This document shows, piece by piece, positions 1-42,542 of a DNA stretch of 64,000 bases. How positions within the stretch are numbered: the stretch's first letter is position 1; each line of letters opens with the position of its first letter. The stretch comes from Amia ocellicauda (lineage: Eukaryota > Chordata > Actinopteri > Amiiformes > Amiidae), in the NCBI RefSeq assembly GCF_036373705.1, contig NC_089856.1, positions 14,476,501 to 14,540,500 on the forward strand. The letters run 5' to 3'. The translations under genes were made by a program, and so were the position numbers. The notes under the pieces were generated by a model. It saw nothing but the letters and a program-made list of their open reading frames with translations, had not been told where the DNA came from and made no database searches.

Positions 1-2073
1 CTGCATGAAACGGAAGGAAAGGTTTGCAGTCTGAGTGGATTATTCCTTTCTGTCCGAAACAGTCACGGTTTGTCGTCTGTTCTCTCACAAGTGGTCAGAA
101 GCAGTCCGTCTTTTTTTGACCGTTCTGGGGTTTTCACCGTGTTTTGGATTCCTGGCGTTTGCATGTGCTTTCCTGAGCCGTGCTGATTCGTAGATTGAGA
201 TGGATGTCTACATCGTCAGCTGTGTTAGGAGGACGGGAGAGATAGAGAGTGCAGGATCCACCTGTGGTCCCCATGGCGGTATAAGGGGATGTAACCGTTG
301 CTCGATGAATACTGCTACAGCCCTTCAGATACGCCATAAGATATCTCCAAATGCTTTTCACAGCAAAAGGGGAGAAAACTAATCGTAGGCCTTGTCGAGC
401 AGGAGGGTCTTCAGCCTGGTTCTAGGTCATGAGAGAGAGAGTTCTGGAGTCTGGGAGCCTGTCATTGAGAGGATCGAGTGCCAGAAGAACCCGACCTGTA
501 AAAGGGTCGATAGAGTACGTTTTGCATTGACAGAGCCCTCGGCTCCATTTGCAGCACGGCGCTGTATGACTTCTGCCAAATAAGAAAGCGCTGGAAGACG
601 CAGAGCCTTGATAGTCGGCAACAGTTTCTTGTAACTTACTGTCTGTGCCACTGGGAGCCCATGGAGGCTTAACAAAATTCGTGTCATGGGAGGTCGCAAC
701 CTCATGCAAGTCAGAACTCTAGCTGCACAATTTCTCACTAATTGCAGTTGATCTACAGTGGTCTTGCGTAGCTTGGCCACTTTCAGCTTTGGTTCGATCA
801 CCTATATTGCAGGGTAGATAAGTTGCGTTATTGGCTGGTCTCTCTTGCCACAGCGTTTGTCATCTTATCGTGGGCTGACACCTGGCAGATGAGATTCAAT
901 GTGGACAAGTGCAAGGTATTACAGGCAGGTAACAAAAATGTCCACTAGCATTTCACTAGAGGAGGAACACAAGAGGAAGACGTAACGCACGAGAAAAAAC
1001 CTAGACGTTGATGTGGACTCATCACTTTCCCCATCCAAACAATGTGGGGAGGCAATAAGAAAGGCCAACAAAATGCTAGGGTACATTGTCAAAAGCGTTC
1101 AATTTCAAACAAGGGAAATCATGTTACGACTGTACAATGCACTAGTTAGACCTCATCTGGAATAGTGTGCACAGCGCGTCAAGAAAGAAATCGCTGCTCT
1201 CGAGGCAGTTCAGAGGCGAGCAACCAGACTTTCTCCTGGCTTGAAGGGTATGTCATACTCGGAGAGACTGAGGGATCTGAACCCTTTCACCCTGGAACAG
1301 AGACGACTACGTGGGAACTTGATTCAAGTCTTCAAAATCGTGAAAGGCGGTGACCACATCAAACCAGAGGAGCTTTTCCAGATGGGCAGGGACGCACGCA
1401 CCCGGGGACACAAATGAAAATCGGCCTTCGAGGCACACAAGACAGCGAACAGGAGACGCTTCTTCACACAGAGAGTTGTTCCAATCTGGAACAAACTCCC
1501 CAGCGATGTGGTTGAAGCCCACAATTTGGGAACATTCAAGAACAGACTGGACGTGATCCTTGGATCGTCTGGGTATTAACAGAAACCAGGCGAGAACGAT
1601 GGGTCGAACGGCCTCCTCCCCTTGGTCAACTTTCTTATGTTTCCTATCTACGCTTGAGGAGCTACGTTTGACAACATGCAAGCATGCTGGCTATTCCACT
1701 GTCACCCAATGGTGCACAGGTGCTTTGGATGCTGCAAAGAGGCAGAAGTCGACGACTTCCGGGATTTCATCATGAACGCTAAGACATTGTGGGCATTACT
1801 TGTTCATAAGCCTGGGAGTCAAAAGTGAGGCTAATGCACCCTGAGTGGGAGGGCTGTTACGTTTCATGGGGATATGGCTCCAGGCTCTAATCGGTTAAGG
1901 CTATACTTTCAGGGATCATTTCTGTAGTCTGTGGCTAGAGAAATGCTTTTCTAGACTGAGTGGTCTTGCTGTCCACGAGGAAGAGTTCGGAGCATTCCCT
2001 TCTGAGCACGAGAAGAGCTTCAAACGCTGCTTTCTAGGAGCGGTTTGTAGCTATCGATGAGTGTTTCTGGGTT
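1..2073. repeat. Macrosatellite monomer 1 (2073 bp)
   Basis: Shares with monomer 2 the variant gattcgtagattgag, where all later copies read ttg instead of tag. It has private changes, including gaccgttctggg near 120 and gcgcgtcaag near 1176 (others gcgcttcaag). With monomer 2 it forms the most distinct left block. Confidence 0.95.
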
Positions 2074-4146
2074 CTGCATGAAACGGAAGGAAAGGTTTGC
2101 AGTCTGAGTGGATTATTCCTTTCTGTCCGAAACAGTCACAGTTTGTCGTGTGGTCTCCCACAAGTGGTCAGAAGCAGTCTGTCTTTCTTTGACCGGACCG
2201 GGGTTTTCACCGTGTTTTGGATTCCTGGTGTTTGCATGTGCTTTCCTGAGCCGTGCTGATTCGTAGATTGAGATGAATGTCTACATCGTCAGCTGTGTTA
2301 GGAGGACGGGAGATATAGAGAGTGCAGGATCCACCTGTGGTCCCCATGGCGGTATAAGGGGATGTAACCGTTGCTCGATGAATACTGCTACAGCCCTTCA
2401 GATACGCCATAAGATATCTCCAAATGCTTTTCACAGCAAAAGGGGAGAAAACTAATCGTAGGCCTTGTCGAGCAGGATAGTCTTCTGCCAGGTTTTAGGT
2501 CATGAGAGAGAGAGTTCTGGAGTCTGGGAGCCTGTCATTGATAGGATCGTGTGCCAGAAGAACCCGACCTGTAAAAGGGTCGATAGAGTACGTTTTGCAT
2601 TGACAGAGCCCTCGGCTCCATTTGCAGCACGGCGCTGTATGACTTCTGCCAAATAAGAAAGCGCTGGAAGACGCAGAGCCATGATAGTCGGCAACAGTTT
2701 CTTGAATCTTACTGTCTGTGCCACTGGGAGCCCATGGAGGCTTAACACAATATGTGTCATGGGAGGTCGCATCCTCATGCAAGTCAGAACTCTAGCTGCA
2801 CAATTTCTCACTAATTGCAGTTGATCTACAGTGGTCTTGCGTAGCTTGGCCACTTTCAGCTTTGGTTCGATCACCTATATTGCAGGGTAGATTAGTTGCG
2901 TTATTGGCAGGTCTCTCTTGCCACAGCGTTTGTCATCTTATCGTGGGCTGACGCCTGGCAGATGGAATTCAATGTGGATAAGTGCAAGGTATTACAGGCA
3001 GGTAACAAAAATGTCCACTAGCATTTCACTAGAGGAGGAACACAAGAGGAAGACGTAACGCACGAGAAAAAACCTAGGTGTTGATGTGGACTCATCACTT
3101 TCCCCATCCAAACAATGTGGGGAGGCAATAAGAAAGGCCAACAAAATGCTAGGGTACATTGTCAAAAGCGTTCAATTTCAAACAAGGGAAGTCATGTTAC
3201 GACTGTACAATGCACTAGTTAGACCTCAACTGGAATAGTGTGCACAGCGCTTCAAGAAAGAAATCGCTGCTCTCGAGGCAGTTCAGAGGCGAGCAACCAG
3301 ACTTTCTCCTGGCTTGAAGGGTATGTCATACTCGGAGAGACTGAGGGATCTGAACCCTTTCACCCTGGAACAGAGACGACTACGTGGGAACTTGATTCAA
3401 GTCTTCAAAATCGTGAAAGGCGGTGACCACATCAAACCAGAGGAGCTTTTCCAGATGGGCAGGGACGCACGCACCCGAGGACACAAATGAAAATCGGCCT
3501 TCGAGGCACACAAGACAGCGAACAGGAGACGCTTCTTCACACAGAGAGTTGTTCCAATCTGGAACAAACTCCCCAGCGATGTGGTTGAAGCCCACAATTT
3601 GGGAACATTCAAGAACAGACTGGACGTGATCCTTGGATCATCTGGGTATTAACAGACACCAGGCGAGAACGATGGGTCGAACGGCCTCCTCCCCTTGGTC
3701 AACTTTCTTATGTTTCCTATCTACGCTTGAGGAGCTACGTTTGACAACATGCAAGCATGCTGGCTATTCCACTGTCACCCAATGGTGCACAGGTGCTTTG
3801 GATGCTGCAAAGAGGCAGAAGTCGACGACTACCGGGATTTCATCATGAACGCTAAGACATTGTGGGCATTACTTGTTTATAAGCCTGGGAGTCAAAAGTG
3901 AGGCTAATGCACCCTGAGTGGGAGGGCTGTTACGTTTCATGGGGATATGGCTCCAGGCTCTAATTGGCTAAGGCTATACTTTCAGGGATCATTTCTGTAG
4001 TCTGTGGCTAGAGAAATGCTTTTCTAGACTGAGTGGTCTTGCTGTCCACGAGGAAGAGTTCGGAGCATTCCTTTCTGAGCACGAGAAGAGCTTCAAACGT
4101 TGCTTTCTAGGAGCGATTTGTAGCTATCGATGAGTGTTTCTGGGTT
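2074..4146. repeat. Macrosatellite monomer 2 (2073 bp)
   Basis: Close to monomer 1. Near 2960 it reads cagatggaattcaatgtgg, encoding QMEFNV, which matches the usual CR1/L2 LINE wording better than the QMRFNV of the other copies. It may therefore keep an older state. Confidence 0.95.
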
Positions 4147-6202
4147 CTGCATGAAACGGAAGGAAAGGTTTGCAGTCTGAGTGGATTATTCCTTTTTGTC
4201 CGAAACAGTCGCAGTTTGTCCTGTGTTCTCCCACAAGTGGTCAGAAGCAGTCCGTCGTTTTTTGACCGTGTTTTGGATTCCTGGCGTTTGTATGTGCATT
4301 CCTGAGCCGTGCTGATTCGTTGATTGAGATGGATGTCTACATCGTCAGCTGTGTTAGGAGGACGGGAGAGATAGAGAGTGCAGGATCCACCTGTGGTCCC
4401 CATGACGGTATAAGGGGATGTAACCGTTGCTCGATGAATACTGCTACAGCCCTTCAGATACGCCATAAGATATCTCCAAATGCTTTTCACAGCAAAAGGG
4501 GAGAAAACTAATCGTAGGCCTTGTCGAGCAGGAAAGTCTTCTGCCAGGTTCTTGGTCATGAGAGAGAGAGTTCTGGACTCTGGGAGCCTGTCATTGAGAG
4601 GATCGTGTGCCAGAAGAACCCGACCTGTAAAAGGGTCGATAGAGTACGTTTTGCATTGACAGAGCCCTCGGCTCCATTTGCAGCACGGCGCTGTATGACT
4701 TCTGCCAAATAAGAAAGCGCTGGAAGACGCAGGGCCTTGATAGTCGGCAACAGTTTCTTGTAACTTACTGTCTGTGCCACTGGGAGCCCATGGAGGCTTA
4801 ACAAAATACGTGTCATGGGAGGTCGCAACCTCATGCAAGTCAGAACTCTAGCTGCACAAATTCTCACTAATTGCAGTTGATCTACAGTGGTCTTGCGTAG
4901 CTTGGCCACTTTCAGCTTTGGTTCGATCACCTATATTGCAGGGTAGATTAGTTGCGTTATTGGCTGGTCTCTCTTGCCACAGCGTTTGTCATCTTATCGT
5001 GGGCTGACGCCTGGCAGATGAGATTCAATGTGGACAAGTGCAAGGTATTACAGGCAGGTAACAAAAATGTCCACTAGCATTTCACTAGGGGAGGAACACA
5101 AGAGGAAGACGTAACGCACGAGAAAAAACCTAGGCGTTGATGTGGACTCATCACTTTCCCCATCCAAACAATGTGGGGAGGCAATAAGAAAGGCCAACAA
5201 AATGCTAGGGTACATTGTCAAAAGCGTTCAATTTCAAACAAGGGAAGTCATGTTACGACTGCACAATGCACTAGTTAGACCTCATCTGGAATAGTGTGCA
5301 CAGCGCTTCAAGAAAGAAATCGCTGCTCTCGAGGCAGTTCAGAGGCGAGCAACCAGACTTTCTCCTGGCTTGAAGGGTATGTCATACTCGGAGAGACTGA
5401 GGGATCTGAACCCTTTCACCCTGGAACAGAGACGACTACGTGGGAACTTGATTTAAGTCTTCAAAATCGTGAAAGGCGGTGACCACATCAAACCAGAGGA
5501 GCATTTCCAGATGGGCAGGGACGCACGCACCCGGGGACACAAATGAAAATCGGCCTTCGAGGCACACAAGACAGCGAACAGGAGACGCTTCTTCACACAG
5601 AGAGTTGTTCCAATCTGGAACAAACTCCCCAGCGATGTGGTTGAAGCCCACAATTTGGGAACATTCAAGAACAGACTGGACGTGATCCTTGGATCATCTG
5701 GGTATTAACAGACACCAGGCGAGAACGATGGGTCGAACGGCCTCCTCCCCTTGGTCAACTTTCTTATGTTTCCTATCTACGCTTGAGGAGCTACGTTTGA
5801 CAACATGCAAGCATTCTGGCTATTCCACTGTCACCCAATGGTGCACAGGTGCTTTGGATGCTGCAAAGAGGCAGAAGTCGACGACTTCCGGGATTTCATC
5901 ATGAACACTAAGACATTGTGGGCATTACTTGTTCATAAGCCTGGGAGTCAAAAGTGAGGCTAATGCACCCTGAGTGGGAGGGCTGTTACGTTTCATGGGG
6001 ATATGGCTCCAGGCTCTAATCGGCTAAGGCTATACTTTCAGGGATCATTTCTGTAGTCTGTGGCTAGAGAAATGCTTTTCTAGACTGAGTGGTCTTGCTG
6101 TCCACGAGGAAGAGTTCGGAGCATTCCTTTCTGAGCACGAGAAGAGCTTCAAACGCTGCTTTCTAGGAGCGATTTGTAGCGATCGATGAGTGTTTCTGGG
6201 TT
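4147..6202. repeat. Macrosatellite monomer 3 (2056 bp, 17-bp deletion)
   Basis: This copy lacks 17 bp (the ccggaccggggttttca segment) near 4267. The deletion fuses minus-strand frames into an apparent 243-codon frame at 4107-4838, which is an artefact of the deletion, not a gene. From this copy on, the LINE segment reads gagcatttcc instead of gagcttttcc, until monomer 10. Confidence 0.95.
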
Positions 6203-8275
6203 CTGCATGAAACGGAAGGAAAGGTTTGCAGTCTGAGTGGATTATTTCTTTCTGTCCGAAACAGTCGCAGTTTGTCGTGTGTTCTCCCACAAGTGGTCAG
6301 AAGCAGTCCGTCTTTTTTTGACCGGACCGGGGTTTTCACCGTGTTTTGGATTCCTGGCGTTTGTATGTGCATTCCTGAGCTGTGCTGATTCGTTGATTGA
6401 GATGGATGTCTACATCGTCAGCTGTGTTAGGAGGACGGGAGAGATAGAGAGTGCAGGATCCACCTGTGGTCCCCATGACGATATAAGGGGATGTAACCGT
6501 TGCTCGATGAATACTGCTACAGCCCTTCAGATACGCCATAAGATATCTCCAAATGCTTTTCACAGCAAAAGGGGAGAAAACTAATTGTAGGCCTTGTCGA
6601 GCAGGAAAGTCTTCTGCCAGGTTCTAGGTCATGAGAGAGAGAGTTCTGGACTCTGGGAGCCTGTCATTGAGAGGATCGTGTGCCAGAAGAACCCGACCTG
6701 TAAAAGGGTCGATAGAGTACGTTTTGCATTGACAGAGCCCTCGGCTCCATTTGCAGCACGGCGCTGTATGACTTCTGCCAAATAAGAAAGCGCTGGAAGA
6801 CGCAGGGCCTTGATAGTCGGCAACAGTTTCTTGTAACTTACTGTCTGTGCCACTGGGAGCCCATGGAGGCTTAACAAAATACGTGTCATGGGAGGTCGCA
6901 ACCTCATGCAAGTCAGAACTCTAGCTGCACAATTTCTCACTAATTGCAGTTGATCTACAGTGGTCTTGCGTAGCTTGGCCACTTTCAGCTTTGGTTCGAT
7001 CACCTATATTGCAGGGTAGATTAGTTGCGTTTTTGGGTGGTCTCTCTTGCCACAGCGTTTGTCATCTTATCGTGGGCTGACGCCTGGCAGATGAGATTCA
7101 ATGTGGACAAGTGCAAGGTATTACAGGCAGGTAACAAAAATGTCCACTAGCATTTCACTAGGGGAGGAACACAAGAGGAAGACGTAACGCACGAGAAAAA
7201 ACCTAGGCGTTGATGTGGACTCATCACTTTCCCCATCCAAACAATGTGGGGAGGCAATAAGAAAGGCCAACAAAATGCTAGGGTACATTGTCAAAAGCGT
7301 TCAATTTCAAACAAGGGAAGTCATGTTACGACTGCACAATGCACTAGTTAGACCTCATCTGGAATAGTGTGCACAGCGCTTCAAGAAAGAAATCGCTGCT
7401 CTCGAGGCAGTTCAGAGGCGAGCAACCAGACTTTCTCCTGGCTTGAAGGGTATGTCATACTCGGAGAGACTGAGGGATCTGAACCCTTTCACCCTGGAAC
7501 AGAGACGACTACGTGGGAACTTGATTCAAGTCTTCAAAATCGTGAAAGGCGGTGACCACATCAAACCAGAGGAGCATTTCCAGATGGGCAGGGACGCACG
7601 CACCCGGGGACACAAATGAAAATCGGCCTTCGAGGCACACAAGACAGCGAACAGGAGACGCTTCTTCACACAGAGAGTTGTTCCAATCTGGAACAAACTC
7701 CCCAGCGATGTGGTTGAAGCCCACAATTTGGGAACATTCAAGAACAGACTGGACGTGATCCTTGGATCATCTGGGTATTAACAGACACCAGGCGAGAACG
7801 ATGGGTCGAACGGCCTCCTCCCCTTGGTCAACTTTCTTATGTTTCCTATCTACGCTTGAGGAGCTACGTTTGACAACATGCAAGCATTCTGGCTATTCCA
7901 CTGTCACCCAATGGTGCACAGGTGCTTTGGATGCTGCAAAGAGGCAGAAGTCGACGACTTCCGGGATTTCATCATGAACACTAAGACATTGTGGGCATTA
8001 CTTGTTCATAAGCCTGGGAGTCAAAAGTGAGGCTAATGCACCCTGAGTGGGAGGGCTGTTACGTTTCATGGGGATATGGCTCCAGGCTCTAATCGGCTAA
8101 GGCTATACTTTCAGGGATCATTTCGGTAGTCTGTGGCTAGAGAAATGCTTTTCTAGACTGAGTGGTCTTGCTGTCCACGAGGAAGAGTTCGGAGCATTCC
8201 TTTCTGAGCACGAGAAGAGCTTCAAACGCTGCTTTCTAGGAGCGATTTGTAGCTATCGATGAGTGTTTCTGGGTT
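6203..8275. repeat. Macrosatellite monomer 4 (2073 bp)
   Basis: Belongs to the homogeneous block of monomers 4-7, which share a run of seven T before gacc and gacgatataagg. It alone in this block has gtttttgggtgg near 7028, a variant otherwise typical of monomers 14-21. Confidence 0.95.
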
Positions 8276-10348
8276 CTGCATGAAACGGAAGGAAAGGTTT
8301 GCAGTCTGAGTGGATTATTCCTTTCTGTCCGAAACAGTCGCAGTTTGTCGTGTTTTCTCCCACAAGTGGTCAGAAGCAGTCCGTCTTTTTTTGACCGGAC
8401 CGGGGTTTTCACCGTGTTTTGGATTCCTGGCGTTTGTATGTGCATTCCTGAGCCGTGCTGATTCGTTGATTGAGATGGATGTCTACATCGTCAGCTGTGT
8501 TAGGAGGACGGGAGAGATAGAGAGTGCAGGATCCACCTGTGGTCCCCATGACGATATAAGGGGATGTAACCGTTGCTCGATGAATACTGCTACAGCCCTT
8601 CAGATACGCCATAAGATATCTCCAAATGCTTTTCACAGCAAAAGGGGAGAAAACTAATTGTAGGCCTTGTCGAGCAGGAAAGTCTTCTGCCAGGTTCTAG
8701 GTCATGAGAGAGAGAGTTCTGGACTCTGGGAGCCTGTCATTGAGAGGATCGTGTGCCAGAAGAACCCGACCTGTAAAAGGGTCGATAGAGTACGTTTTGC
8801 ATTGACAGAGCCCTCGGCTCCATTTGCAGCACGGCGCTGTATGACTTCTGCCAAATAAGAAAGCGCTGGAAGACGCAGGGCCTTGATAGTCGGCAACAGT
8901 TTCTTGTAACTTACTGTCTGTGCCACTGGGAGCCCATGGAGGCTTAACAAAATACGTGTCATGGGAGGTCGCAACCTCATGCAAGTCAGAACTCTAGCTG
9001 CACAATTTCTCACTAATTGCAGTTGATCTACAGTGGTCTTGCGTAGCTTGGCCACTTTCAGCTTTGGTTCGATCACCTATATTGCAGGGTAGATTAGTTG
9101 CGTTATTGGCTGGTCTCTCTTGCCACAGCGTTTGTCATCTTATCGTGGGCTGACGCCTGGCAGATGAGATTCAATGTGGACAAGTGCAAGGTATTACAGG
9201 CAGGTAACAAAAATGTCCACTAGCATTTCACTAGGGGAGGAACACAAGAGGAAGACGTAACGCACGAGAAAAAACCTAGGCGTTGATGTGGACTCATCAC
9301 TTTCCCCATCCAAACAATGTGGGGAGGCAATAAGAAAGGCCAACAAAATGCTAGGGTACATTGTCAAAAGCGTTCAATTTCAAACAAGGGAAGTCATGTT
9401 ACGACTGCACAATGCACTAGTTAGACCTCATCTGGAATAGTGTGCACAGCGCTTCAAGAAAGAAATCGCTGCTCTCGAGGCAGTTCAGAGGCGAGCAACC
9501 AGACTTTCTCCTGGCTTGAAGGGTATGTCATACTCGGAGAGACTGAGGGATCTGAACCCTTTCACCCTGGAACAGAGACGACTACATGGGAACTTGATTC
9601 AAGTCTTCAAAATCGTGAAAGGCGGTGACCACATCAAACCAGAGGAGCATTTCCAGATGGGCAGGGACGCACGCACCCGGGGACACAAATGAAAATCGGC
9701 CTTCGAGGCACACAAGACAGCGAACAGGAGACGCTTCTTCACACAGAGAGTTGTTCCAATCTGGAACAAACTCCCCAGCGATGTGGTTGAAGCCCACAAT
9801 TTGGGAACATTCAAGAACAGACTGGACGTGATCCTTGGATCATCTGGGTATTAACAGACACCAGGCGAGAACGATGGGTCGAACGGCCTCCTCCCCTTGG
9901 TCAACTTTCTTATGTTTCCTATCTACGCTTGAGGAGGTACGTTTGACAACATGCAAGCATTCTGGCTATTCCACTGTCACCCAATGGTGCACAGGTGCTT
10001 TGGATGCTGCAAAGAGGCAAAAGTCGACGACTTCCGGGATTTCATCATGAACACTAAGACATTGTGGGCATTACTTGTTCATAAGCCTGGGAGTCAAAAG
10101 TGAGGCTAATGCACCCTGAGTGGGAGGGCTGTTACGTTTCATGGGGATATGGCTCCAGGCTCTAATCGGCTAAGGCTATACTTTCAGGGATCATTTCTGT
10201 AGTCTGTGGCTAGAGAAATGCTTTTCTAGACTGAGTGGTCTTGCTGTCCACGAGGAAGAGTTCGGAGCATTCCTTTCTGAGCACGAGAAGAGCTTCAAAC
10301 GCTGCTTTCTAGGAGCGATTTGTAGCTATCGATGAGTGTTTCTGGGTT
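8276..10348. repeat. Macrosatellite monomer 5 (2073 bp)
   Basis: Member of the monomer 4-7 block. Private change ctacatggg near 9583 in the LINE segment. The tail reads gaggaggtacg, shared with monomers 6, 7 and 9. Confidence 0.95.
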
Positions 10349-12421
10349 CTGCATGAAACGGAAGGAAAGGTTTGCAGTCTGAGTGGATTATTCCTTTCTG
10401 TCCGAAACAGTCACAGTTTGTCGTGTGTTCTCCCACAAGTGGTCAGAAGCAGTCCGTCTTTTTTTGACCGGACCGGGGTTTTCACCGTGTTTTGGATTCC
10501 TGGCGTTTGTATGTGCTTTCCTGAGCCGTGCTGATTCGTTGATTGAGATGGATGTCTACATCATCAGCTGTGTTAGGAGGACGGGAGAGATAGAGAGTGC
10601 AGGATCCACCTGTGGTCCCCATGACGATATAAGGGGATGTAACCGTTGCTCGATGAATACTGCTACAGCCCTTCAGATACGCCATAAGTTATCTCCAAAT
10701 GCTTTTCACAGCAAAAGGGGAGAAAACTAATCGTAGGCCTTGTCGAGCAGGAAAGTCTTCTGCCAGGTTCTAGGTCATGAGAGAGAGAGTTCTGGACTCT
10801 GGGAGCCTGTCATTGAGAGGATCGTGTGCCAGAAGAACCCGACCTGTAAAAGGGTCGATAGAGTACGTTTTGCATTGACAGAGCCCTCGGCTCCATTTGC
10901 AGCACGGCGCTGTATGACTTCTGCCAAATAAGAAAGCACTGGAAGACGCAGGGCCTTGATAGTCGGCAACAGTTTCTTGTAACTTACTGTCTGTGCCACT
11001 GGGAGCCCATGGAGGCTTAACAAGATACGTGTCATGGGAGGTCGCAACCTCATGCAAGTCAGAACTCTAGCTGCACAATTTCTCACTAATTGCAGTTGAT
11101 CTACAGTGGTCTTGCGTAGCTTGGCCACTTTCAGCTTTGGTTCGATCACCTATATTGCAGGGTAGATTAGTTGCGTTATTGGCTGGTCTCTCTTGCCACA
11201 GCGTTTGTCATCTTATCGTGGGCTGACGCCTGGCAGATGAGATTCAATGTGGACAAGTGCAAGGTATTACAGGCAGGTAACAAAAATGTCCACTAGCATT
11301 TCACTAGGGGAGGAACACAAGAGGAAGACGTAACGCACGAGAAAAAACCTAGGCGTTGATGTGGACTCATCACTTTCCCCATCCAAACAATGTGGGGAGG
11401 CACTAAGAAAGGCCAACAAAATGCTAGGGTACATTGTCAAAAGCGTTCAATTTCAAACAAGGGAAGTCATGTTACGACTGTACAATGCACTAGTTAGACC
11501 TCATCTGGAATAGTGTGCACAGCGCTTCAAGAAAGAAATCGCTGCTCTCGAGGCAGTTCAGAGGCGAGCAACCAGACTTTCTCCTGGCTTGAAGGGTATG
11601 TCATACTCGGAGAGACTGAGGGATCTGAACCCTTTCACCCTGGAACAGAGACGACTACGTGGGAACTTGATTCAAGTCTTCAAAATCGTGAAAGGCGGTG
11701 ACCACATCAAACCAGAGGAGCATTTCCAGATGGGCAGGGACGCACGCACCCGGGGACACAAATGAAAATCGGCCTTCGAGGCACACAAGACAGCGAACAG
11801 GAGACGCTTCTTCACACAGAGAGTTGTTCCAATCTGGAACAAACTCCCCAGCGATGTGGTTGAAGCCCACAATTTGGGAACATTCAAGAACAGACTGGAC
11901 GTGATCCTTGGATCATCTGGGTATTAACAGACACCAGGCGAGAACGATGGGTCGAACGGCCTCCTCCCCTTGGTCAACTTTCTTATGTTTCCTATCTACG
12001 CTGGAGGAGGTACGTTTGACAACATGCAAGCATTCTGGCTATTCCACTGTCACCCAATGGTGCACAGGTGCTTTGGATGCTGCAAAGAGGCAGAAGTCGA
12101 CGACTTCCGGGATTTCATCATGAACACTAAGACATTGTGGGCATTACTTGTTCATAAGCCTGGGAGTCAAAAGTGAGGCTAATGCACCCTGAGTGGGAGG
12201 GCTGTTACGTTTCATGGGGATATGGCTCCAGGCTCTAATCGGCTAAGGCTATACTTTCAGGGATCATTTCTGTAGTCTGTGGCTAGAGAAATGTTTTTCT
12301 AGACTGAGTGGTCTTGCTGTCCACGAGGAAGAGTTCGGAGCATTCCTTTCTGAGCACGAGAAGAGCTTCAAACGCTGCTTTCTAGGAGCGATTTGTAGCT
12401 ATCGATGAGTGTTTCTGGGTT
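10349..12421. repeat. Macrosatellite monomer 6 (2073 bp)
   Basis: Member of the monomer 4-7 block. A change to gctggagg at 12000 removes the usual tail stop, leaving a 68-codon frame at 11970-12176 that shows the HCHPMVH motif discussed under findings. Confidence 0.95.
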
Positions 12422-16573: not shown

Positions 16574-16960
16574 CTGCATGAAACGGAAGGAAAGGTTTGC
16601 AGTCTGAGTGGATTGTTCCTTTCTGTCCGAAACAGTCGCAGTTTGTCGTGTGTTCTCCCACAAGTGGTCAGAAGCAGTCCGTCTTTTTTTGACCGGACCG
16701 GGGTTTTCACCGTGTTTTGGATTCCTGGCGTTTGTACGTGCATTCCTGAGCCGTGCTGATTCGTTGATTGAGATGGATGTCTACATCGTCAGCTGTGTTA
16801 GGAGGACGGGAGAGATAGAGAGTGCAGGATCCACCTGTGGTCCCCATGACGATATAAGGGGATGTAACCGTTGCTCGATGAATACTGCTACAGCCCTTCA
16901 GATACGCCATAAGATATCTCCAAATGCTTTTCACAGCAAAAGGGGAGAAAACTAATCGTA
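16574..16960. other. Monomer section A, unidentified (shown in monomer 9)
   Basis: The first 390 bp of the monomer. Plus-strand frames here (115 codons in several copies, for example 16608-16955) and the minus-strand 75-codon frame recur simply because the DNA recurs, and neither matches a family I know. On the minus strand it directly follows the antisense LINE reading frame, so part of it is probably that LINE's 3' untranslated region. That is inference. Confidence 0.5.
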
Positions 16961-16969
16961 GGCCTTGTC

Positions 16970-17374: not shown

Positions 17375-17439
17375 CTATATTGCAGGGTAGATTAGTTGCG
17401 TTATTGGCTGGTCTCTCTTGCCACAGCGTTTGTCATCTT

Positions 17440-31108: not shown

Positions 31109-33181
31109 CTGCATGAAACGGAAGGAAAGGTTTGCAGTCTGAGTGGATTATTCCTTTCTGTCCGAAACAGTCACGTTTTGTCGTGTGTTCTCCCACGAGT
31201 GGTCAGAAGCAGTCTGTCTTTCATTGACCGGACCGGGGTTTTCACCGTGTTTTGGATTCCTGGCGTTTGCATGTGCTTTCCTGAGCCGTGCTGATTCGTT
31301 GATTGAGATGGATGTCTACATCGTCAGCTGTGTTAGGAGGACGGGAGATATAGAGAGTGCAGGATCCACCTGTGGTCCCCATGACGGTATAAGGGGATGT
31401 AACCGTTGCTCGATGAATACTGCTACAGCCCTTCAGATACGCCATAAGATATCTCCAAATGCTTTTCACAGCAAAACGGGAGAAAACTAATCTTAGGCCT
31501 TGTCGAGCAGGAAGGTCTTCAGCCTGGTTCTAGGTCATGAGAGAGAGAGTTCTGGAGTCTGGGAACCTGTCATTGAGAGGATCGTGTGCCAGAAGAACCC
31601 GACCTGTAAAAGGGTCGATAGAGTACGTTTTGCATTGACAGAGCCCTCGGCTCCATTTGCAGCACGGCGCTGTATGACTTCTGCCAAATAAGAAAGCGCT
31701 GGAAGACGCAGGGCCTTGATAGTCGGCAACAGTTTCTTGTAACTTATTGTCTGTGCCACTGGGAGCCCATGGAGGCTTAACAAAATACGTGTCATGGGAG
31801 GTCGCAACCTCATGCAAGTCAGAACTCTAGCTGCACAATTTCTCACTAATTGCAGTTGATCTACAGTGGTCTTGGGTAGTTTGGCCACTTTCAGCTTTGG
31901 TTCGATCACCTATATTGCAGGGTAGATTAGTTGCGTTTTTGGGTGGTCTCTCTTGCCACAGCGTTTGTCATCTTATCGTGGGCTGACGCCTGGCAGATGA
32001 GATTCAATGTGGACAAGTGCAAGGTATTACAGGCAGGTAACAAAAATGTCCACTAGCATTTCACTAGGGGAGGAACACAAGAGGAAGACGTAACGCACGA
32101 GAAAAAACCTAGGTGTTGATGTGGACTCATCACTTTCCCCATCCAAACAATGTGGGGAGGCAATAAGAAAGGCAAACAAAATGCTAGGGTACATTGTCAA
32201 AAGCGTTCAATTTCAAACAAGGGAAGTCATGTTACGACCGTACAATGCACTAGTTAGACCTCATCTGGAATAGTGTGCACAGCGCTTCAAGAAAGAAATC
32301 GCTGCTCTCGAGGCAGTTCAGAGGCGAGCAACCAGACTTTCTCCTGGCTTGAAGGGTATGTCATACTCGGAGAGACTGAGGGATCTGAACCCTTTCACCC
32401 TGGAACAGAGACGACTACGTGGGAACTTGATTCAAGTCTTCAAAATCGTGAAAGGCGGTGACCACATCAAACCAGAGGAGCTTTTCCAGATGGGCAGGGA
32501 CGCACGCACCTGGGGACAAAAATGAAAATCGGCCTTCGAGGCACACAAGACAGCGAACAGGAGACGCTTCTTCACACAGAGAGTTGTTCCAATCTGGAAC
32601 AAACTCCCCAGCGATGTGGTTGAAGCCCACAATTTGGGAACATTCAAGAACAGACTGGACGTGATCCTTGGATCACCTGGGTATTAACAGACACCAGGCG
32701 AGAACGATGGGTCGAACGGCCTCCTCCCCTTGGTCAACTTTCTTATGTTTCCTATCTACGCTTGAGGAGCTACGTTTGACAACATACAAGCATGCTGGCT
32801 ATTCCACTGTCACCCAATGGTGCACAGGTGCTTTGGATGCTGCAAAAAGGCAGAAGTCGACGACTTCCGGGATTTCGACATGAACGCTAAGACATTGTGG
32901 GCATTACTTGTTCATAAGCCTGGGAGTCAAAAGTGAGGCTAATGCACCCTGAGTGGGAGGGCTGTTACGTTTCATGGGGATATGGCTCCAGGCTCTAATC
33001 GGCTAAGGCTATACTTTCAGGGATCATTTCTGTAGTCTGTGGCTAGAGAAATGCTTTTCTAGACTGAGTGGTCTTGCTGTCCACGAGGAAGAGTTCGGAG
33101 CATTCCTTTCTGAGCACGAGAAGAGCTTCAAATGCTGCTTTCTAGGAGCGGTTTGTAGCTATCGATGAGTGTTTCTGGGTT
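31109..33181. repeat. Macrosatellite monomer 16 (2073 bp)
   Basis: First of the type with cacctggggac, aacatacaagc, ttcgacatg and cttattgtctg, shared with monomers 18-20. Private ggagatatagag near 31345 and cgaccgtac near 32236. Confidence 0.95.
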
Positions 33182-35260
33182 CTGCATGAAACGGAAGGAA
33201 AGGTTTGCAGTCTGAGTGGATTATTCCTTTCTGTCCGAAACAGTCACGTTTTGTCGTGTGTTCTCCCACAAGTGGTCAGAAGCAGTCCGTCTTTCAATGA
33301 CCGGACCGGGGTTTTCACCGTGTTTTGGATTCCTGGCATTTGCATGTGCTTTCCTGAGCCGTGCTGATTCGTTGATTGAGATGGATGTCTACATCGTCAG
33401 CTGTGTTAGGAGGACGGGAGAGATAGAGAGTGCAGGATCCACCTGTGGTCCCCATGACGGTATAAGGGGATGTAACCGTTGCTCGATGAATACTGCTACA
33501 GCCCTTCAGATACGCCATAAGATATCTCCAAATGCTTTTCACAGCAAAAGGGGAGAAAACTAATCGTAGGCCTTGTCGAGCAGGAGGGTCTTCAGCCTGG
33601 TTCTAGGTCATGAGAGAGAGAGAGAGAGTTCTGGAGTCTGGGAGCCTGTCATTGAGAGGATCGTGTGCCAGAAGAACCCGACCTGTAAAAGGGTCGATAG
33701 AGTACGTTTTGCATTGACAGAGCCCTCGGCTCCATTTGCAGCACGGCGCTGTATGACTTCTGCCAAATAAGAAAGCGCTGGAAGACGCAGGGCCTTGATA
33801 GTCGGCAACAGTTTCTTGTAACTTACTGTCTGTGCCACTGGGAGCCCATGGAGGCTTAACAAAATATGTGTCATGGGAGGTCGCAACCTCATGCAAGTCA
33901 GAACTCTAGCTGCACAATTTCTCACTAATTGCAGTTGATCTACAGTGGTCTTGGGTAGTTTGGCCACTTTCAGCTTTGGTTCGATCACCTATATTGCAGG
34001 GTAGATTAGTTGCGTTTTTGGGTGGTCTCTCTTGCCACAGCGTTTGTCATCTTATCGTGGGCTGACGCCTGGCAGATGAGATTCAATGTGGACAAGTGCA
34101 AGGTATTACAGGCAGGTAACAAAAATGTCCACTAGCATTTCACTAGGGGAGGAACACAAGAGGAAGACGTAACGCACGAGAAAAAACCTAGGTGTTGATG
34201 TGGACTCATCACTTTCCCCATCCAAACAATGTGGGGAGGCAATAAGAAAGGCAAACAAAATGCTAGGGTACATTGTCAAAAGCGTTCAATTTCAAACAAG
34301 GGAAGTCATGTTACGACTGTACAATGCACTAGTTAGACCTCATCTGGAATAGTGTGCACAGCGCTTCAAGAAAGAAATCGCTGCTCTCGAGGCAGTTCAG
34401 AGGCGAGCAACCAGACTTTCTCCTGGATTGAAGGGTATGTCATACTCGGAGAGACTGAGGGATCTGAACCCTTTCACCCTGGAACAGAGACGACTACGTG
34501 GGAACTTGATTCAAGTCTTCAAAATCGTGAAAGGCGGTGACCACATCAAACCAGAGGAGCTTTTCCAGATGGGCAGGGACGCACGCACCCGGGGACAAAA
34601 ATGAAAATCGGCCTTCGAGGCACACAAGACAGCGAACAGGAGACGCTTCTTAATACAGAGAGTTGTTCCAATCTGGAACAAACTCCCCAGCGATGTGGTT
34701 GAAGCCCACAATTTGGGAACATTCAAGAACAGACTGGACGTGATCCTTGGATCACCTGGGAATTAACAGACACCAGGCGAGAACGATGGGTCGAACGGCC
34801 TCCTCCCCTTGGTCAACTTTCTTATGTTTCCTATCTACGCTTGAGGAGCTACGTTTGACAACATGCAAGCATGCTGGCTATTCCACTGTCACCCAATGGT
34901 GCACAGGTGCTTTGGATGCTGCAAAAAGGCAGAAGTCGACGACTTCCGGGATTTCAACATGAACGCTAAGACATTGTGGGCATTACTTGTTCATAAGCCT
35001 GGGACTCAAAAGTGAGGCTAATGCACCCTGAGTGGGAGGGCTGTTACGTTTCATGGGGATATGGCTCCAGGCTCTAATCGGCTAAGGCTATACTTTCAGG
35101 GATCATTTCTGTAGTCTGTGGCTAGAGAAATGCTTTTCTAGACTGAGTGGTCTTGCTGTCCACGAGGAAGAGTTCGGAGCATTCCTTTCTGAGCACGAGA
35201 AGCGCTTCAAACGCTGCTTTCTAGGAGCGGTTTGTAGCTATCGATGAGTGTTTCTGGGTT
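33182..35260. repeat. Macrosatellite monomer 17 (2079 bp)
   Basis: In most of its length it belongs with monomers 14 and 15 (long GA run, ttcaacatg, gggaattaac, gggactcaaaag), yet it lies between two monomers of the other type (16 and 18). Confidence 0.95.
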
Positions 35261-37333
35261 CTGCATGAAACGGAAGGAAAGGTTTGCAGTCTGAGTGGAT
35301 TATTCCTTTCTGTCCGAAACAGTCGCAGATTGTCGTGTGTTCTCCCACGAGTGGTCAGAAGCAGTCTGTCTTTCATTGACCGGACCGGGGTTTTCACCGT
35401 GTTTTGGATTCCTGGCGTTTGCATGTGCTTTCCTGAGCCGTGCTGATTCGTTGATTGAGATGGATGTCTACATCGTCAGCTGTGTTAGGAGGACGGGAGA
35501 GATAGAGAGTGCAGGATCCACCTGTGGTCCCCATGACGGTATAAGGGGATGTAACCGTTGCTCGATGAATACTGCTACAGCCCTTCAGATACGCCATAAG
35601 ATATCTCCAAATGCTTTTCACAGCAAAACGGGAGAAAACTAATCTTAGGCCTTGTCGAGCAGGAGGGTCTTCAGCCTGGTTCTAGGTCATGAGAGAGAGA
35701 GTTCTGGAGTCTGGGAACCTGTCATTGAGAGGATCGTGTGCCAGAAGAACCCGACCTGTAAAAGGGTCGATAGAGTACGTTTTGCATTGACAGAGCCCTC
35801 GGCTCCATTTGCAGCACGGCGCTGTATGACTTCTGCCAAATAAGAAAGCGCTGGAAGACGCAGGGCCTTGATAGTCGGCAACAGTTTCTTGTAACTTATT
35901 GTCTGTGCCACTGGGAGCCCATGGAGGCTTAACAAAATACGTGTCATGGGAGGTCGCAACCTCATGCAAGTCAGAACTCTAGCTGCACAATTTCTCACTA
36001 ATTGCAGTTGATCTACAGTGGTCTTGGGTAGTTTGGCCACTTTCAGCTTTGGTTCGATCACCTATATTGCAGGGTAGATTAGTTGCGTTTTTGGGTGGTC
36101 TCTCTTGCCACAGCGTTTGTCATCTTATCGTGGGCTGACGCCTGGCAGATGAGATTCAATGTGGACAAGTGCAAGGTATTACAGGCAGGTAACAAAAATG
36201 TCCACTAGCATTTCACTAGGGGAGGAACACAAGAGGAAGACGTAACGCACGAGAAAAAACCTAGGTGTTGATGTGGACTCATCACTTTCCCCATCCAAAC
36301 AATGTGGGGAGGCAATAAGAAAGGCAAACAAAATGCTAGGGTACATTGTCAAAAGCGTTCAATTTCAAACAAGGGAAGTCATGTTACGACTGTACAATGC
36401 ACTAGTTAGACCTCATCTGGAATAGTGTGCACAGCGCTTCAAGAAAGAAATCGCTGCTCTCGAGGCAGTTCAGAGGCGAGCAACCAGACTTTCTCCTGGC
36501 TTGAAGGGTATGTCATACTCGGAGAGACTGAGGGATCTGAACCCTTTCACCCTGGAACAGAGACGACTACGTGGGAACTTGATTCAAGTCTTCAAAATCG
36601 TGAAAGGCGGTGACCACATCAAACCAGAGGAGCTTTTCCAGATGGGCAGGGACGCACGCACCTGGGGACAAAAATGAAAATCGGCCTTCGAGGCACACAA
36701 GACAGCGAACAGGAGACGCTTCTTCACACAGAGAGTTGTTCCAATCTGGAACAAACTCCCCAGCGATGTGGTTGAAGCCCACAATTTGGGAACATTCAAG
36801 AACAGACTGGACGTGATCCTTGGATCACCTGGGTATTAACAGACACCAGGCGAGAACGATGGGTCGAACGGCCTCCTCCCCTTGGTCAACTTTCTTATGT
36901 TTCCTATCTACGCTTGAGGAGCTACGTTTGACAACATACAAGCATGCTGGCTATTCCACTGTCACCCAATGGTGCACAGGTGCTTTGGATGCTGCAAAAA
37001 GGCAGAAGTCGACGACTTCCGGGATTTCGACATGAACGCTAAGACATTGTGGGCATTACTTGTTCATAAGCCTGGGAGTCAAAAGTGAGGCTAATGCACC
37101 CTGAGTGGGAGGGCTGTTACGTTTCATGGGGATATGGCTCCAGGCTCTAATCGGCTAAGGCTATACTTTCAGGGATCATTTCTGTAGTCTGTGGCTAGAG
37201 AAATGCTTTTCTAGACTGAGTGGTCTTGCTGTCCACGAGGAAGAGTTCGGAGCATTCCTTTCTGAGCACGAGAAGAGCTTCAAATGCTGCTTTCTAGGAG
37301 CGGTTTGTAGCTATCGATGAGTGTTTCTGGGTT
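35261..37333. repeat. Macrosatellite monomer 18 (2073 bp)
   Basis: Almost the same as monomer 16 after the first 200 bp. The beginning has gtcgcagattgtc, a private variant. Confidence 0.95.
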
Positions 37334-39406
37334 CTGCATGAAACGGAAGGAAAGGTTTGCAGTCTGAGTGGATTATTCCTTTCTGTCCGAAACAGTCACG
37401 TTTTGTCGTGTGTTCTCCCACAAGTGGTCAGAAGCAGTCCGTCTTTCAATGACCGGACCGGGGTTTTCACCGTGTTTTGGATTCCTGGCATTTGCATGTG
37501 CTTTCCTGAGCCGTGCTGATTCGTTGATTGAGATGGATGTCTACATCGTCAGCTGTGTTAGGAGGACGGGAGAGATAGAGAGTGCAGGATCCACCTGTGG
37601 TCCCCATGACGGTATAAGGGGATGTAACCGTTGCTCGATGAATACTGCTACAGCCCTTCAGATACGCCATAAGATATCTCCAAATGCTTTTCACAGCAAA
37701 ACGGGAGAAAACTAATCTTAGGCCTTGTCGAGCAGGAGGGTCTTCAGCCTGGTTCTAGGTCATGAGAGAGAGAGTTCTGGAGTCTGGGAACCTGTCATTG
37801 AGAGGATCGTGTGCCAGAAGAACCCGACCTGTAAAAGGGTCGATAGAGTACGTTTTGCATTGACAGAGCCCTCGGCTCCATTTGCAGCACGGCGCTGTAT
37901 GACTTCTGCCAAATAAGAAAGCGCTGGAAGACGCAGGGCCTTGATAGTCGGCAACAGTTTCTTGTAACTTATTGTCTGTGCCACTGGGAGCCCATGGAGG
38001 CTTAACAAAATACGTGTCATGGGAGGTCGCAACCTCATGCAAGTCAGAACTCTAGCTGCACAATTTCTCACTAATTGCAGTTGATCTACAGTGGTCTTGG
38101 GTAGTTTGGCCACTTTCAGCTTTGGTTCGATCACCTATATTGCAGGGTAGATTAGTTGCGTTTTTGGGTGGTCTCTCTTGCCACAGCGTTTGTCATCTTA
38201 TCGTGGGCTGACGCCTGGCAGATGAGATTCAATGTGGACAAGTGCAAGGTATTACAGGCAGGTAACAAAAATGTCCACTAGCATTTCACTAGGGGAGGAA
38301 CACAAGAGGAAGACGTAACGCACGAGAAAAAACCTAGGTGTTGATGTGGACTCATCACTTTCCCCATCCAAACAATGTGGGGAGGCAATAAGAAAGGCAA
38401 ACAAAATGCTAGGGTACATTGTCAAAAGCGTTCAATTTCAAACAAGGGAAGTCATGTTACGACTGTACAATGCACTAGTTAGACCTCATCTGGAATAGTG
38501 TGCACAGCGCTTCAAGAAAGAAATCGCTGCTCTCGAGGCAGTTCAGAGGCGAGCAACCAGACTTTCTCCTGGCTTGAAGGGTATGTCATACTCGGAGAGA
38601 CTGAGGGATCTGAACCCTTTCACCCTGGAACAGAGACGACTACGTGGGAACTTGATTCAAGTCTTCAAAATCGTGAAAGGCGGTGACCACATCAAACCAG
38701 AGGAGCTTTTCCAGATGGGCAGGGACGCACGCACCTGGGGACAAAAATGAAAATCGGCCTTCGAGGCACACAAGACAGCGAACAGGAGACGCTTCTTCAC
38801 ACAGAGAGTTGTTCCAATCTGGAACAAACTCCCCAGCGATGTGGTTGAAGCCCACAATTTGGGAACATTCAAGAACAGACTGGACGTGATCCTTGGATCA
38901 CCTGGGTATTAACAGACACCAGGCGAGAACGATGGGTCGAACGGCCTCCTCCCCTTGGTCAACTTTCTTATGTTTCCTATCTACGCTTGAGGAGCTACGT
39001 TTGACAACATACAAGCATGCTGGCTATTCCACTGTCACCCAATGGTGCACAGGTGCTTTGGATGCTGCAAAAAGGCAGAAGTCGACGACTTCCGGGATTT
39101 CGACATGAACGCTAAGACATTGTGGGCATTACTTGTTCATAAGCCTGGGAGTCAAAAGTGAGGCTAATGCACCCTGAGTGGGAGGGCTGTTACGTTTCAT
39201 GGGGATATGGCTCCAGGCTCTAATCGGCTAAGGCTATACTTTCAGGGATCATTTCTGTAGTCTGTGGCTAGAGAAATGCTTTTCTAGACTGAGTGGTCTT
39301 GCTGTCCACGAGGAAGAGTTCGGAGCATTCCTTTCTGAGCACGAGAAGAGCTTCAAATGCTGCTTTCTAGGAGCGGTTTGTAGCTATCGATGAGTGTTTC
39401 TGGGTT
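37334..39406. repeat. Macrosatellite monomer 19 (2073 bp)
   Basis: I see no difference between this copy and monomer 20 over the full length, which points to a very recent duplication or conversion. Confidence 0.95.
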
Positions 39407-41479
39407 CTGCATGAAACGGAAGGAAAGGTTTGCAGTCTGAGTGGATTATTCCTTTCTGTCCGAAACAGTCACGTTTTGTCGTGTGTTCTCCCACAAGTGG
39501 TCAGAAGCAGTCCGTCTTTCAATGACCGGACCGGGGTTTTCACCGTGTTTTGGATTCCTGGCATTTGCATGTGCTTTCCTGAGCCGTGCTGATTCGTTGA
39601 TTGAGATGGATGTCTACATCGTCAGCTGTGTTAGGAGGACGGGAGAGATAGAGAGTGCAGGATCCACCTGTGGTCCCCATGACGGTATAAGGGGATGTAA
39701 CCGTTGCTCGATGAATACTGCTACAGCCCTTCAGATACGCCATAAGATATCTCCAAATGCTTTTCACAGCAAAACGGGAGAAAACTAATCTTAGGCCTTG
39801 TCGAGCAGGAGGGTCTTCAGCCTGGTTCTAGGTCATGAGAGAGAGAGTTCTGGAGTCTGGGAACCTGTCATTGAGAGGATCGTGTGCCAGAAGAACCCGA
39901 CCTGTAAAAGGGTCGATAGAGTACGTTTTGCATTGACAGAGCCCTCGGCTCCATTTGCAGCACGGCGCTGTATGACTTCTGCCAAATAAGAAAGCGCTGG
40001 AAGACGCAGGGCCTTGATAGTCGGCAACAGTTTCTTGTAACTTATTGTCTGTGCCACTGGGAGCCCATGGAGGCTTAACAAAATACGTGTCATGGGAGGT
40101 CGCAACCTCATGCAAGTCAGAACTCTAGCTGCACAATTTCTCACTAATTGCAGTTGATCTACAGTGGTCTTGGGTAGTTTGGCCACTTTCAGCTTTGGTT
40201 CGATCACCTATATTGCAGGGTAGATTAGTTGCGTTTTTGGGTGGTCTCTCTTGCCACAGCGTTTGTCATCTTATCGTGGGCTGACGCCTGGCAGATGAGA
40301 TTCAATGTGGACAAGTGCAAGGTATTACAGGCAGGTAACAAAAATGTCCACTAGCATTTCACTAGGGGAGGAACACAAGAGGAAGACGTAACGCACGAGA
40401 AAAAACCTAGGTGTTGATGTGGACTCATCACTTTCCCCATCCAAACAATGTGGGGAGGCAATAAGAAAGGCAAACAAAATGCTAGGGTACATTGTCAAAA
40501 GCGTTCAATTTCAAACAAGGGAAGTCATGTTACGACTGTACAATGCACTAGTTAGACCTCATCTGGAATAGTGTGCACAGCGCTTCAAGAAAGAAATCGC
40601 TGCTCTCGAGGCAGTTCAGAGGCGAGCAACCAGACTTTCTCCTGGCTTGAAGGGTATGTCATACTCGGAGAGACTGAGGGATCTGAACCCTTTCACCCTG
40701 GAACAGAGACGACTACGTGGGAACTTGATTCAAGTCTTCAAAATCGTGAAAGGCGGTGACCACATCAAACCAGAGGAGCTTTTCCAGATGGGCAGGGACG
40801 CACGCACCTGGGGACAAAAATGAAAATCGGCCTTCGAGGCACACAAGACAGCGAACAGGAGACGCTTCTTCACACAGAGAGTTGTTCCAATCTGGAACAA
40901 ACTCCCCAGCGATGTGGTTGAAGCCCACAATTTGGGAACATTCAAGAACAGACTGGACGTGATCCTTGGATCACCTGGGTATTAACAGACACCAGGCGAG
41001 AACGATGGGTCGAACGGCCTCCTCCCCTTGGTCAACTTTCTTATGTTTCCTATCTACGCTTGAGGAGCTACGTTTGACAACATACAAGCATGCTGGCTAT
41101 TCCACTGTCACCCAATGGTGCACAGGTGCTTTGGATGCTGCAAAAAGGCAGAAGTCGACGACTTCCGGGATTTCGACATGAACGCTAAGACATTGTGGGC
41201 ATTACTTGTTCATAAGCCTGGGAGTCAAAAGTGAGGCTAATGCACCCTGAGTGGGAGGGCTGTTACGTTTCATGGGGATATGGCTCCAGGCTCTAATCGG
41301 CTAAGGCTATACTTTCAGGGATCATTTCTGTAGTCTGTGGCTAGAGAAATGCTTTTCTAGACTGAGTGGTCTTGCTGTCCACGAGGAAGAGTTCGGAGCA
41401 TTCCTTTCTGAGCACGAGAAGAGCTTCAAATGCTGCTTTCTAGGAGCGGTTTGTAGCTATCGATGAGTGTTTCTGGGTT
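39407..41479. repeat. Macrosatellite monomer 20 (2073 bp), last full copy
   Basis: Apparently identical to monomer 19. Its sequence type continues into the first 440 bp of the terminal piece. Confidence 0.95.
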
Positions 41480-42413
41480 CTGCATGAAACGGAAGGAAAG
41501 GTTTGCAGTCTGAGTGGATTATTCCTTTCTGTCCGAAACAGTCACGTTTTGTCGTGTGTTCTCCCACAAGTGGTCAGAAGCAGTCCGTCTTTCAATGACC
41601 GGACCGGGGTTTTCACCGTGTTTTGGATTCCTGGCATTTGCATGTGCTTTCCTGAGCCGTGCTGATTCGTTGATTGAGATGGATGTCTACATCGTCAGCT
41701 GTGTTAGGAGGACGGGAGAGATAGAGAGTGCAGGATCCACCTGTGGTCCCCATGACGGTATAAGGGGATGTAACCGTTGCTCGATGAATACTGCTACAGC
41801 CCTTCAGATACGCCATAAGATATCTCCAAATGCTTTTCACAGCAAAACGGGAGAAAACTAATCTTAGGCCTTGTCGAGCAGGAGGGTCTTCAGCCTGGTT
41901 CTAGGTCATGAGAGAGAGAGAGAGAGAGATAGTTCTGGAGTCTGGGAGCCTGTCATTGAGAGGATCGTGTGCCAGAAGAACCCGACCTGTATAAGGGTCG
42001 ATAGAGTACGTTTTGCATTGACAGAGCCCTCGGCCCCATTTGCAGCACGGCGCTGTATGACTTCTGCCAAATAAGAAAGCGCTGGAAGACGCAGGGCCTT
42101 GATAGTCGGCAACAGTTTCTTGTAACTTACTGTCTGTGCCACTGGGAGCCCATGGAGGCTTAACAAAATACGTGTCATGGGAGGTCGCAACCTCATTGCA
42201 AGTCAGAACTCTAGCTGCACAATTTCTCACTAATTGCAGTTGATCTACAGTGGTCTTGGGTAGCTTGACCACTTTCAGCTTTGGTTCGTTTACCTATATT
42301 GCAGGGTAGATTAGTTGCGTTTTTGGGTGGTCTCTCTTGCCACAGCGTTTGTCATCTTATCGTGGGCTGACACCTGGCAGATGAGATTCAATGTGGACAA
42401 GTGCATGGTATTA
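41480..42413. repeat. Terminal partial monomer 21 (934 bp)
   Basis: The first 440 bp match monomers 19 and 20. From the GA run at about 41910 on, private changes accumulate: a longer GA run ending in gatag, tataaggg, cggccccat, ctcattgcaag, gcttgaccac and gttcgttta. Homology stops at about 42413, inside the first part of the plus-strand LINE segment. Confidence 0.93.
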
Positions 42414-42440
42414 TTCATCTCCGACATAGAATTTTTTTTT

Positions 42441-42542
42441 CTCTTTCGTAGGACTTTTTATCTCCTACGTACGACTCTATCTCCTACGTAGTAGTTTTTT
42501 TTCTCCTAAGTACAACTTTCTTTCTCTTACGTAGGACTTTTA
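42441..42542. repeat. Five imperfect 20-bp repeats with core cctacgta at the array junction
   Basis: Just outside the array, the motif tctcctacgtangactttt occurs five times in a row with changes (starts near 42441, 42461, 42481, 42503 and 42523). Each copy carries a (c/t)ctacgta or close variant and a T-rich spacer. It is not related to the 2073-bp monomer. It may be a minisatellite or the subterminal part of an unidentified element whose end abuts the array. Confidence 0.75.

Follow-up and report, generated by a model that had tools for sequence, protein, structure and literature searches.

U3, a small nucleolar RNA (snoRNA) required for 18S ribosomal RNA (rRNA) production in eukaryotes, is carried in every unit of a long tandem array in Amia ocellicauda, and the nearest described systems are arrays and duplicated sets of small-RNA genes in other organisms. 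The available portion of a survey of fishes presents U2-U5 linkage as the common situation in the species studied and describes the association of a short interspersed element (SINE) with one of the 5S types (PMC3464664), and the available sections on zebrafish report that 5S, 45S, and small nuclear RNA (snRNA) genes come in separate maternal and somatic sets (PMC11075544; PMC5513064). In Euglena gracilis, according to the accessible part of the account, U3 genes are multi-copy, linked to U5, and of several variants, among which only one 3' stem-loop difference is said to disrupt a standard pair; tandem U3 genes were sought there by genomic PCR and, within that part, none are described as found (PMC2784804). 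The locus considered here lies in a window of 64,000 nt, the whole stretch of DNA that was analysed (C7:14,476,501-14,540,500; C7 is contig NC_089856.1). As in the U2-U5 and 5S arrays of the fish survey, in the text available (PMC3464664), a small-RNA gene and its spacer are repeated head to tail; unlike them, the gene is U3 and the gene part is no more conserved than the spacer. Several U3 variants are a feature shared with Euglena gracilis, whose genes are U5-linked in the accessible account (PMC2784804), whereas here U3 copies follow one another head to tail and an Rfam scan of the window found no U5. No U3 macrosatellite or long tandem U3 array was found among the papers listed in literature searches, a weak negative in that two of the listings covered a small part of the matching papers and subscription papers and preprints lay outside their scope.

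The array probably represents a second, divergent U3 type that was once functional, was amplified together with debris of long interspersed elements (LINEs), and has most likely been relaxed or in decay since recent times, with canonical genes on contig C4 supplying U3. Two U3 types that differ by about 30%, one housed in a 66-kb array, would amount to a core RNA family splitting with one of its branches turning satellite.

The array and its U3 copies

A periodicity scan places the tandem array on the plus strand at window bases 1-42405, the spacing of k-mers being most often 2073 or 2079 bp; its units are 2056-2085 bp long, mostly 2073 or 2079. By unit alignment, this portion comprises units 13-32 of 32 and the 3' end of the unit-12 U3; 20 units thus lie within the window and 12 further units start upstream, the twelfth straddling the window start. 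The left boundary, taken from the upstream sequence, is at C7:14,453,121, for a total of 32 units and 65,785 bp, and with a kilobase-sized unit in a long head-to-tail array (32 x ~2.07 kb) the locus is a macrosatellite. Units 2-31 can be aligned end to end and differ pairwise by a mean of 2.0% (range 0 to 3.3%).

Each unit holds one full-length, plus-strand match to the U3 family (RF00012), both in the Rfam scan of the window (20/20) and in a search of the 988-Mb genome (32/32), where the array copies score 118-135 bits over model positions 1-219 against a curated cut-off of 34 bits. The copies are 216 nt long with a GC content of 0.46. The unit-12 copy (C7:14476324-14476539, from the genome search) reaches into the window with its 3' end at 1-39. 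Those of units 13 to 20 lie at 1897-2112 (130.5 bits), 3970-4185 (129.3), 6026-6241 (126.4), 8099-8314 (122.3), 10172-10387 (130.8), 12245-12460 (130.7), 14318-14533 (133.6), and 16397-16612 (134.8); those of units 21 to 26 at 18470-18685 (133.6), 20543-20758 (123.2), 22622-22837 (118.4, the lowest, unit 23), 24701-24916 (135.4, the highest, unit 24), 26774-26989 (130.2), and 28853-29068 (131.1); and those of units 27 to 32 at 30932-31147 (131.1), 33005-33220 (133.7), 35084-35299 (129.3), 37157-37372 (133.7), 39230-39445 (133.7), and 41303-41518 (133.7), all on the plus strand. A sequence-only reading of this DNA had described a macrosatellite with 20 whole copies of a monomer containing two LINE fragments; periodicity bears out the long array and the 20 copies in the window, and the two LINE fragments are real, but the U3 match present in every one of those units had been overlooked.

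The genome search scored 63 candidates and gave 55 matches: the 32 of the array; on C4, 15 copies scoring 147.7 bits, one scoring 152.1 bits, and five that are partial (89-97 bits); and two decayed copies, at C7:17348105 (73 bits) and C18:22930362 (36 bits). The canonical C4 genes measure 201 or 205 nt and have a GC content of 0.58-0.63, and the array type is 69-70% identical to them, the two C4 forms being 92.5% identical to each other. Both types belong to the same RNA family, possess boxes A'/A, B-like, and D, and are multi-copy; unlike the array type, the canonical genes are GC-rich, have an intact box C, and are identical in 11 of the 11 copies fetched. The canonical cluster spans C4:19.57-20.23 Mb, with a spacing of mostly 13-19 kb at 20.08-20.22 Mb, and five canonical copies form a 2556-bp tandem on C4. 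In the two partial C4 copies inspected, AT-rich sequence stands in place of the 5' part. The decayed copy at C7:17348105-17348317 lies 2.8 Mb downstream of the array and is nearest to the array type (75.6%).

With the names of the U3 and promoter boxes being those that we take to be standard, the array consensus equals the canonical sequence in the 18S-pairing boxes A'/A across nt 5-32, with the sole exception of an A-to-G change at nt 28; a small number of units vary at nt 16, 26, 27, or 30. Box D (CUGA) is intact in the consensus and altered in unit 2. Box C reads CGATGA, with the first U changed to C, in 27 of the 32 units (in unit 32 at 41461-41466, plus strand, by unit alignment) and TGATGA in the other five, unit 24 among them. 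The 5' GAC has become GGC in the four array copies compared.

Probable past function and present constraint

Judging from changes that are coupled across its stems, the array type apparently kept functioning as U3 long after it split from the canonical type. When the Rfam structure was placed on a plain MAFFT alignment of an array copy with a canonical gene (pairs treated as independent, one branch), 10 pairs had changed on both sides, nine on one side, and 34 on neither, with eight gapped (Fisher p 2e-5). The other canonical form again gave 10, nine, and 34 pairs (p 5e-5), and sliding the pair partners by 1 or 2 columns, as a control, gave p>0.57. The decayed C7:17348105 behaves otherwise: against the array it shows one double change, 24 one-sided changes, 17 of which break the pair, and 35 unchanged pairs (p 0.97), and against canonical U3 six, 25, and 21 (p 0.67). 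Likewise, a count over ten sequences found nine double-change pairs against 3.9 in shuffles (reached in 0/500) and 1-2 when slid. Seven of the 10 pairs doubly changed between array and canonical types are standard in both. Structure-fitted alignments are biased towards structure, and the plain MAFFT alignment was used for the main test; in the fitted alignments, double changes relative to the consensus keep the pair in 20 cases and break it in three, one-sided changes keep it in five and break it in five, and of the 13 pairs that differ on both sides between the array and C4:29855013, the C4 gene has the Rfam consensus pair in 11, which places most of these double changes on the array branch. 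Standard pairs number 53 of 61 aligned in the two array copies inspected, and 52/60 and 46/55 in two canonical genes. Given that paired positions changed together, the array type would therefore have diverged while functional. Deamination alone, which replaces G by A and C by T and leaves a pair intact when both of its sides are hit, would as the source of the double changes leave the shortage of one-sided changes unexplained, and is also at odds with the decayed relative and its mostly one-sided changes and broken pairs.

Traces of control elements flank the gene. In unit 32, a box resembling a proximal sequence element (PSE) at -60 (CACCCTGAGT, 41243-41252, plus strand) matches 8/10 of the box at -59 of canonical gene C4:20083235, a score reached by 6/2000 shuffles, and the identical -60 word is present in units 1 and 24, the other units inspected. 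Beyond the gene stands a degenerate 3'-box-like element (GTCCGAAACAGT, 41531-41542, plus strand; 8/12 matched, reached by 41/2000 shuffles), and at -221 a degenerate octamer, or distal sequence element (DSE), site (ATACAAGC, unit consensus ATGCAAGC, 41082-41089, plus strand; 5/8). Among four canonical genes inspected, one of which supplied the reference box words, three have the PSE-like word at -59, all four have the 3' box, and the octamers near -220 match 6, 7, 8, and 8 of 8. The decayed relative scores only 3/10 for the PSE word and 6/12 for the 3' box. Because of its PSE-like box at -60 and its degenerate 3' box, unit 32 looks derived from a gene rather than retroposed.

At present, relaxed constraint fits the variation within the array. 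Variable sites make up 27 of 216 in U3 and 262 of 1857 in the rest of the unit (p 0.60), or 26 and 198, respectively, when unit 1 is left out (p 0.56). Recent variants at paired sites keep the pair in six cases, break it in eight, and in one fall on an already-open pair. In contrast, all 11 canonical copies fetched from the 15 that share one score agree fully across 201 nt, and their flanks do not: 7 of 10 are distinct on the 5' side (mean difference 18.7%) and 7 of 11 on the 3' side (mean 10.5%). Pairing in array copies remains on a par with that in canonical ones, so decay, if any, would be young. In a nine-unit array of U2 and U5 from the same genome, used as a control, variable gene sites number 0/191 and 0/117, and variable spacer sites 10/642.

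Several points weigh against a type that once worked and is now relaxed. Equal variability of gene and spacer is a weak test with 216 U3 sites, and the U2/U5 control counts for little, given that 0/308 gene and 10/642 spacer sites vary. The sameness of the canonical copies may partly reflect conversion or recent duplication, some of their flanks being identical too, and in the array consensus boxes A'/A and D remain intact, with pairing as good as in canonical U3. As to past function, the other three of the 10 double-change pairs are non-standard in at least one of the types, further pair types are not raised in the ten-sequence count (18 against 18.5 in shuffles), and the fold of a single array copy is not unusual (z -0.96; canonical copy -1.55), leaving folding energy uninformative as structural evidence. 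As to the control elements, the resemblance of the unit-32 octamer is at chance level (5/8 reached by 594/2000 shuffles), canonical gene C4:29855013 itself matches just 5/10 of the PSE word, and the box words were picked post hoc from one canonical gene, with shuffles that preserve base composition alone; the shuffle counts are therefore flattering, the words having been chosen after both sequences were seen. Finally, the timing of the LINE insertion and of the amplification is one that we infer.

Active or dead: the alternatives to a probable relaxed second type

The alternative that survives best is an active and specialised role for the array, for example as an oocyte-type U3 locus that would be a counterpart of the zebrafish maternal and somatic 5S, 45S, and snRNA sets; we consider this doubtful. 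The compensated divergence, the intact consensus boxes A'/A and D, and the PSE-like box would all suit it, as would the presence of two U2 types in the same genome. One U2 type is found on C18 in at least five copies (191.9 bits; 46 of 47,629 candidates scored), and the other lies in the large U2+U5 array, which has a period of ~0.92-0.95 kb, occupies two small contigs (C144:47001-53000 and C166:14001-19000), and carries U2 at 175.1 bits; one C18 U2 and one array U2 differ at 27/191 positions, all after nt 73. Work by Pagano et al. reportedly deals with zebrafish snoRNAs of maternal and somatic type. The zebrafish maternal and somatic snRNA and rRNA sets speak for the same possibility, so far as the available part of that report goes (PMC11075544). 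Against it stand the lack of visible constraint within the array, the altered box C in 27/32 units, and GAC reading as GGC; further, U2-U5 arrays are the usual state in the fishes studied, in the portion of the survey available (PMC3464664), and no second intact 45S type accompanies the second U3.

That last negative covers five 18S starts, in a search with one pattern, the ribosomal DNA (rDNA) of this genome being poorly assembled. Four of the starts are canonical and stand at contig ends, and the fifth, C6:20891440, is a decayed fragment whose similarity is clear solely near the 18S start and which has no Rfam small-subunit rRNA match. Upstream of C6:20891440 the sequence is AT-rich, with a GC content of 0.39 against 0.70 upstream of canonical 18S (L038). 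To go by its sequence, the fragment is perhaps the relic of a second rDNA type.

An active stage-specific U3 in this genome is thus thinkable by analogy. Its fuller form, in which two U3 RNAs would be in use, the C4 set and an A-U-rich array set that is stage-specific (for example in oogenesis) alongside the variant U2/U5 array, would give the machinery that makes ribosomes a guide RNA of its own for that stage; it is unlikely, more so than an active specialised locus as such. If the array is expressed, stage-specific ribosome assembly becomes testable.

It is very improbable that the array stems from a retroposed or long-dead U3 pseudogene that was multiplied by chance and had no function after the split. 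Decayed U3 copies do exist in the genome (C7:17348105 and C18:22930362), and, according to the part of the source available, few of the numerous mammalian U3 loci are seen to be expressed (PMC5967550). Yet paired sites changed together in the array, unlike in the decayed relative, and a PSE-like box at the correct distance would not accompany a retroposed RNA.

LINE pieces, array growth, and neighbouring features

Two LINE protein fragments lie in each unit, in opposite orientation. The plus-strand piece is a 5'-truncated CR1-like LINE 3' end, recognised from its dispersed copies, and occurs 20 times in the window, with starts at 869, 2943, 4997, and so on to 40274; the last (40274-41045, plus strand) ends ~258 nt before the last U3. 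At ~772 nt, it is 82-84% identical to 38 dispersed places scored (the best 38 of 4421 candidates). In one longer copy, L007, it follows the end of a reverse transcriptase with FADD, where RVT_1 is matched at E 3.5e-5 and 24.0 bits, below the Pfam cut-off of 29.6. The family name CR1 is presumptive and rests on 3'-end features.

The minus-strand piece is an older LINE 3' part with an open frame, found by protein homology after the last U3 (41901-42272, minus strand), with counterparts at 39833-40207, 37760-38134, and so on. Of 2906 candidates for its frame of ~124 amino acids (aa), 150 were scored, and 117 of these lie outside the array, with 32-51% identity at the aa level. One of them falls in an 897-aa frame that carries Exo_endo_phos and RVT_1 (39% across 84 aa). 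Having no Pfam match of its own, the piece is typed through this homologue. At the DNA level, the matches listed include two places outside the array, at 74% and 71%, and with matches so few and so low the piece is presumably old. At the right array edge, a further CR1-like piece is cut off with only its start present (42361-42405, plus strand). At the left edge, before the first U3, most of the plus-strand piece is missing and its last bases are kept; since those bases are retained, the edge represents a deletion rather than an empty site.

Homology of both pieces upholds the earlier description of two different non-LTR fragments in opposite orientation within a kilobase-sized monomer. Both are 3' parts of LINEs, as in CR1-like and other elements; unlike LINE elements proper, they are truncated passengers, and the unit's gene is another. 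It is hard to credit that the array is nothing more than a satellite derived from a nested LINE insertion: the two pieces are real, opposed, and about half of the unit, but the U3 in every unit refutes this as a full account, promoter and 3'-box traces are present, and the LINE pieces sit in the spacer of a gene array. The LINE-derived share is roughly 1.1 of 2.07 kb, and the characterisation of the monomer as made from LINE 3' ends fails on the remainder, nearly half of the unit and non-LINE, with its full-length U3 and control-box traces. By extension, kilobase-sized satellites labelled as transposon-derived merit scanning for RNA genes.

Growth of the array has left a pattern among its units. 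Units 3, 6, 11, and 13 form one family, units 5, 10, and 12 another, and units 4 and 9, 7 and 14, and 8 and 15 three more, interleaved in a way that suggests the copying of a block some five units long, and unit 30 is identical to its neighbour unit 31 over its entire length. These interleaved families and the identical neighbours argue for unequal exchange within the array, which backs one of the two routes that the sequence-only reading had offered. The other, rolling-circle reinsertion, left no sign: the non-LINE part occupies one locus (40 matches scored of 49 candidates, being the 32 array copies and eight U3 matches elsewhere). Nor was any element containing the monomer present among the best-scored places of the genome searches. 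That the array is an artefact of assembly is close to negligible: long near-identical repeats are frequent targets of misassembly, but the units are distinguishable by patterned differences of ~2%, the array is flanked on either side by other sequence within a 49-Mb contig, and the search turned up no second place with the unit.

For a second U3 type that was once functional and later relaxed, the course of events might have been as follows. A copy of the U3 gene, promoter included, would have split long ago from the canonical type, and its stems would have changed pair by pair while it worked, mostly from G-C to A-U. A CR1-like LINE end would then have inserted ~250 nt upstream of U3, close to the older inverted LINE relic, and the whole block would have been amplified through unequal exchange. 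The copies would now be drifting without detectable constraint, most of them without the first U of box C, and the locus would persist as a macrosatellite with the C4 genes providing U3.

Of the remaining features, no tRNA genes were found in the window, and tRNA genes as a driver of the array are thus unsupported. A T-rich short repeat with a 21-bp period adjoins the right array edge (42417-42541), and a 32-bp tandem repeat of 4.4 copies lies at 52281-52422. On the minus strand at 58176-60062, a LINE extends across three frames, with RVT_1 matched twice, once above and once below the Pfam cut-off, and zf-RVT below it.

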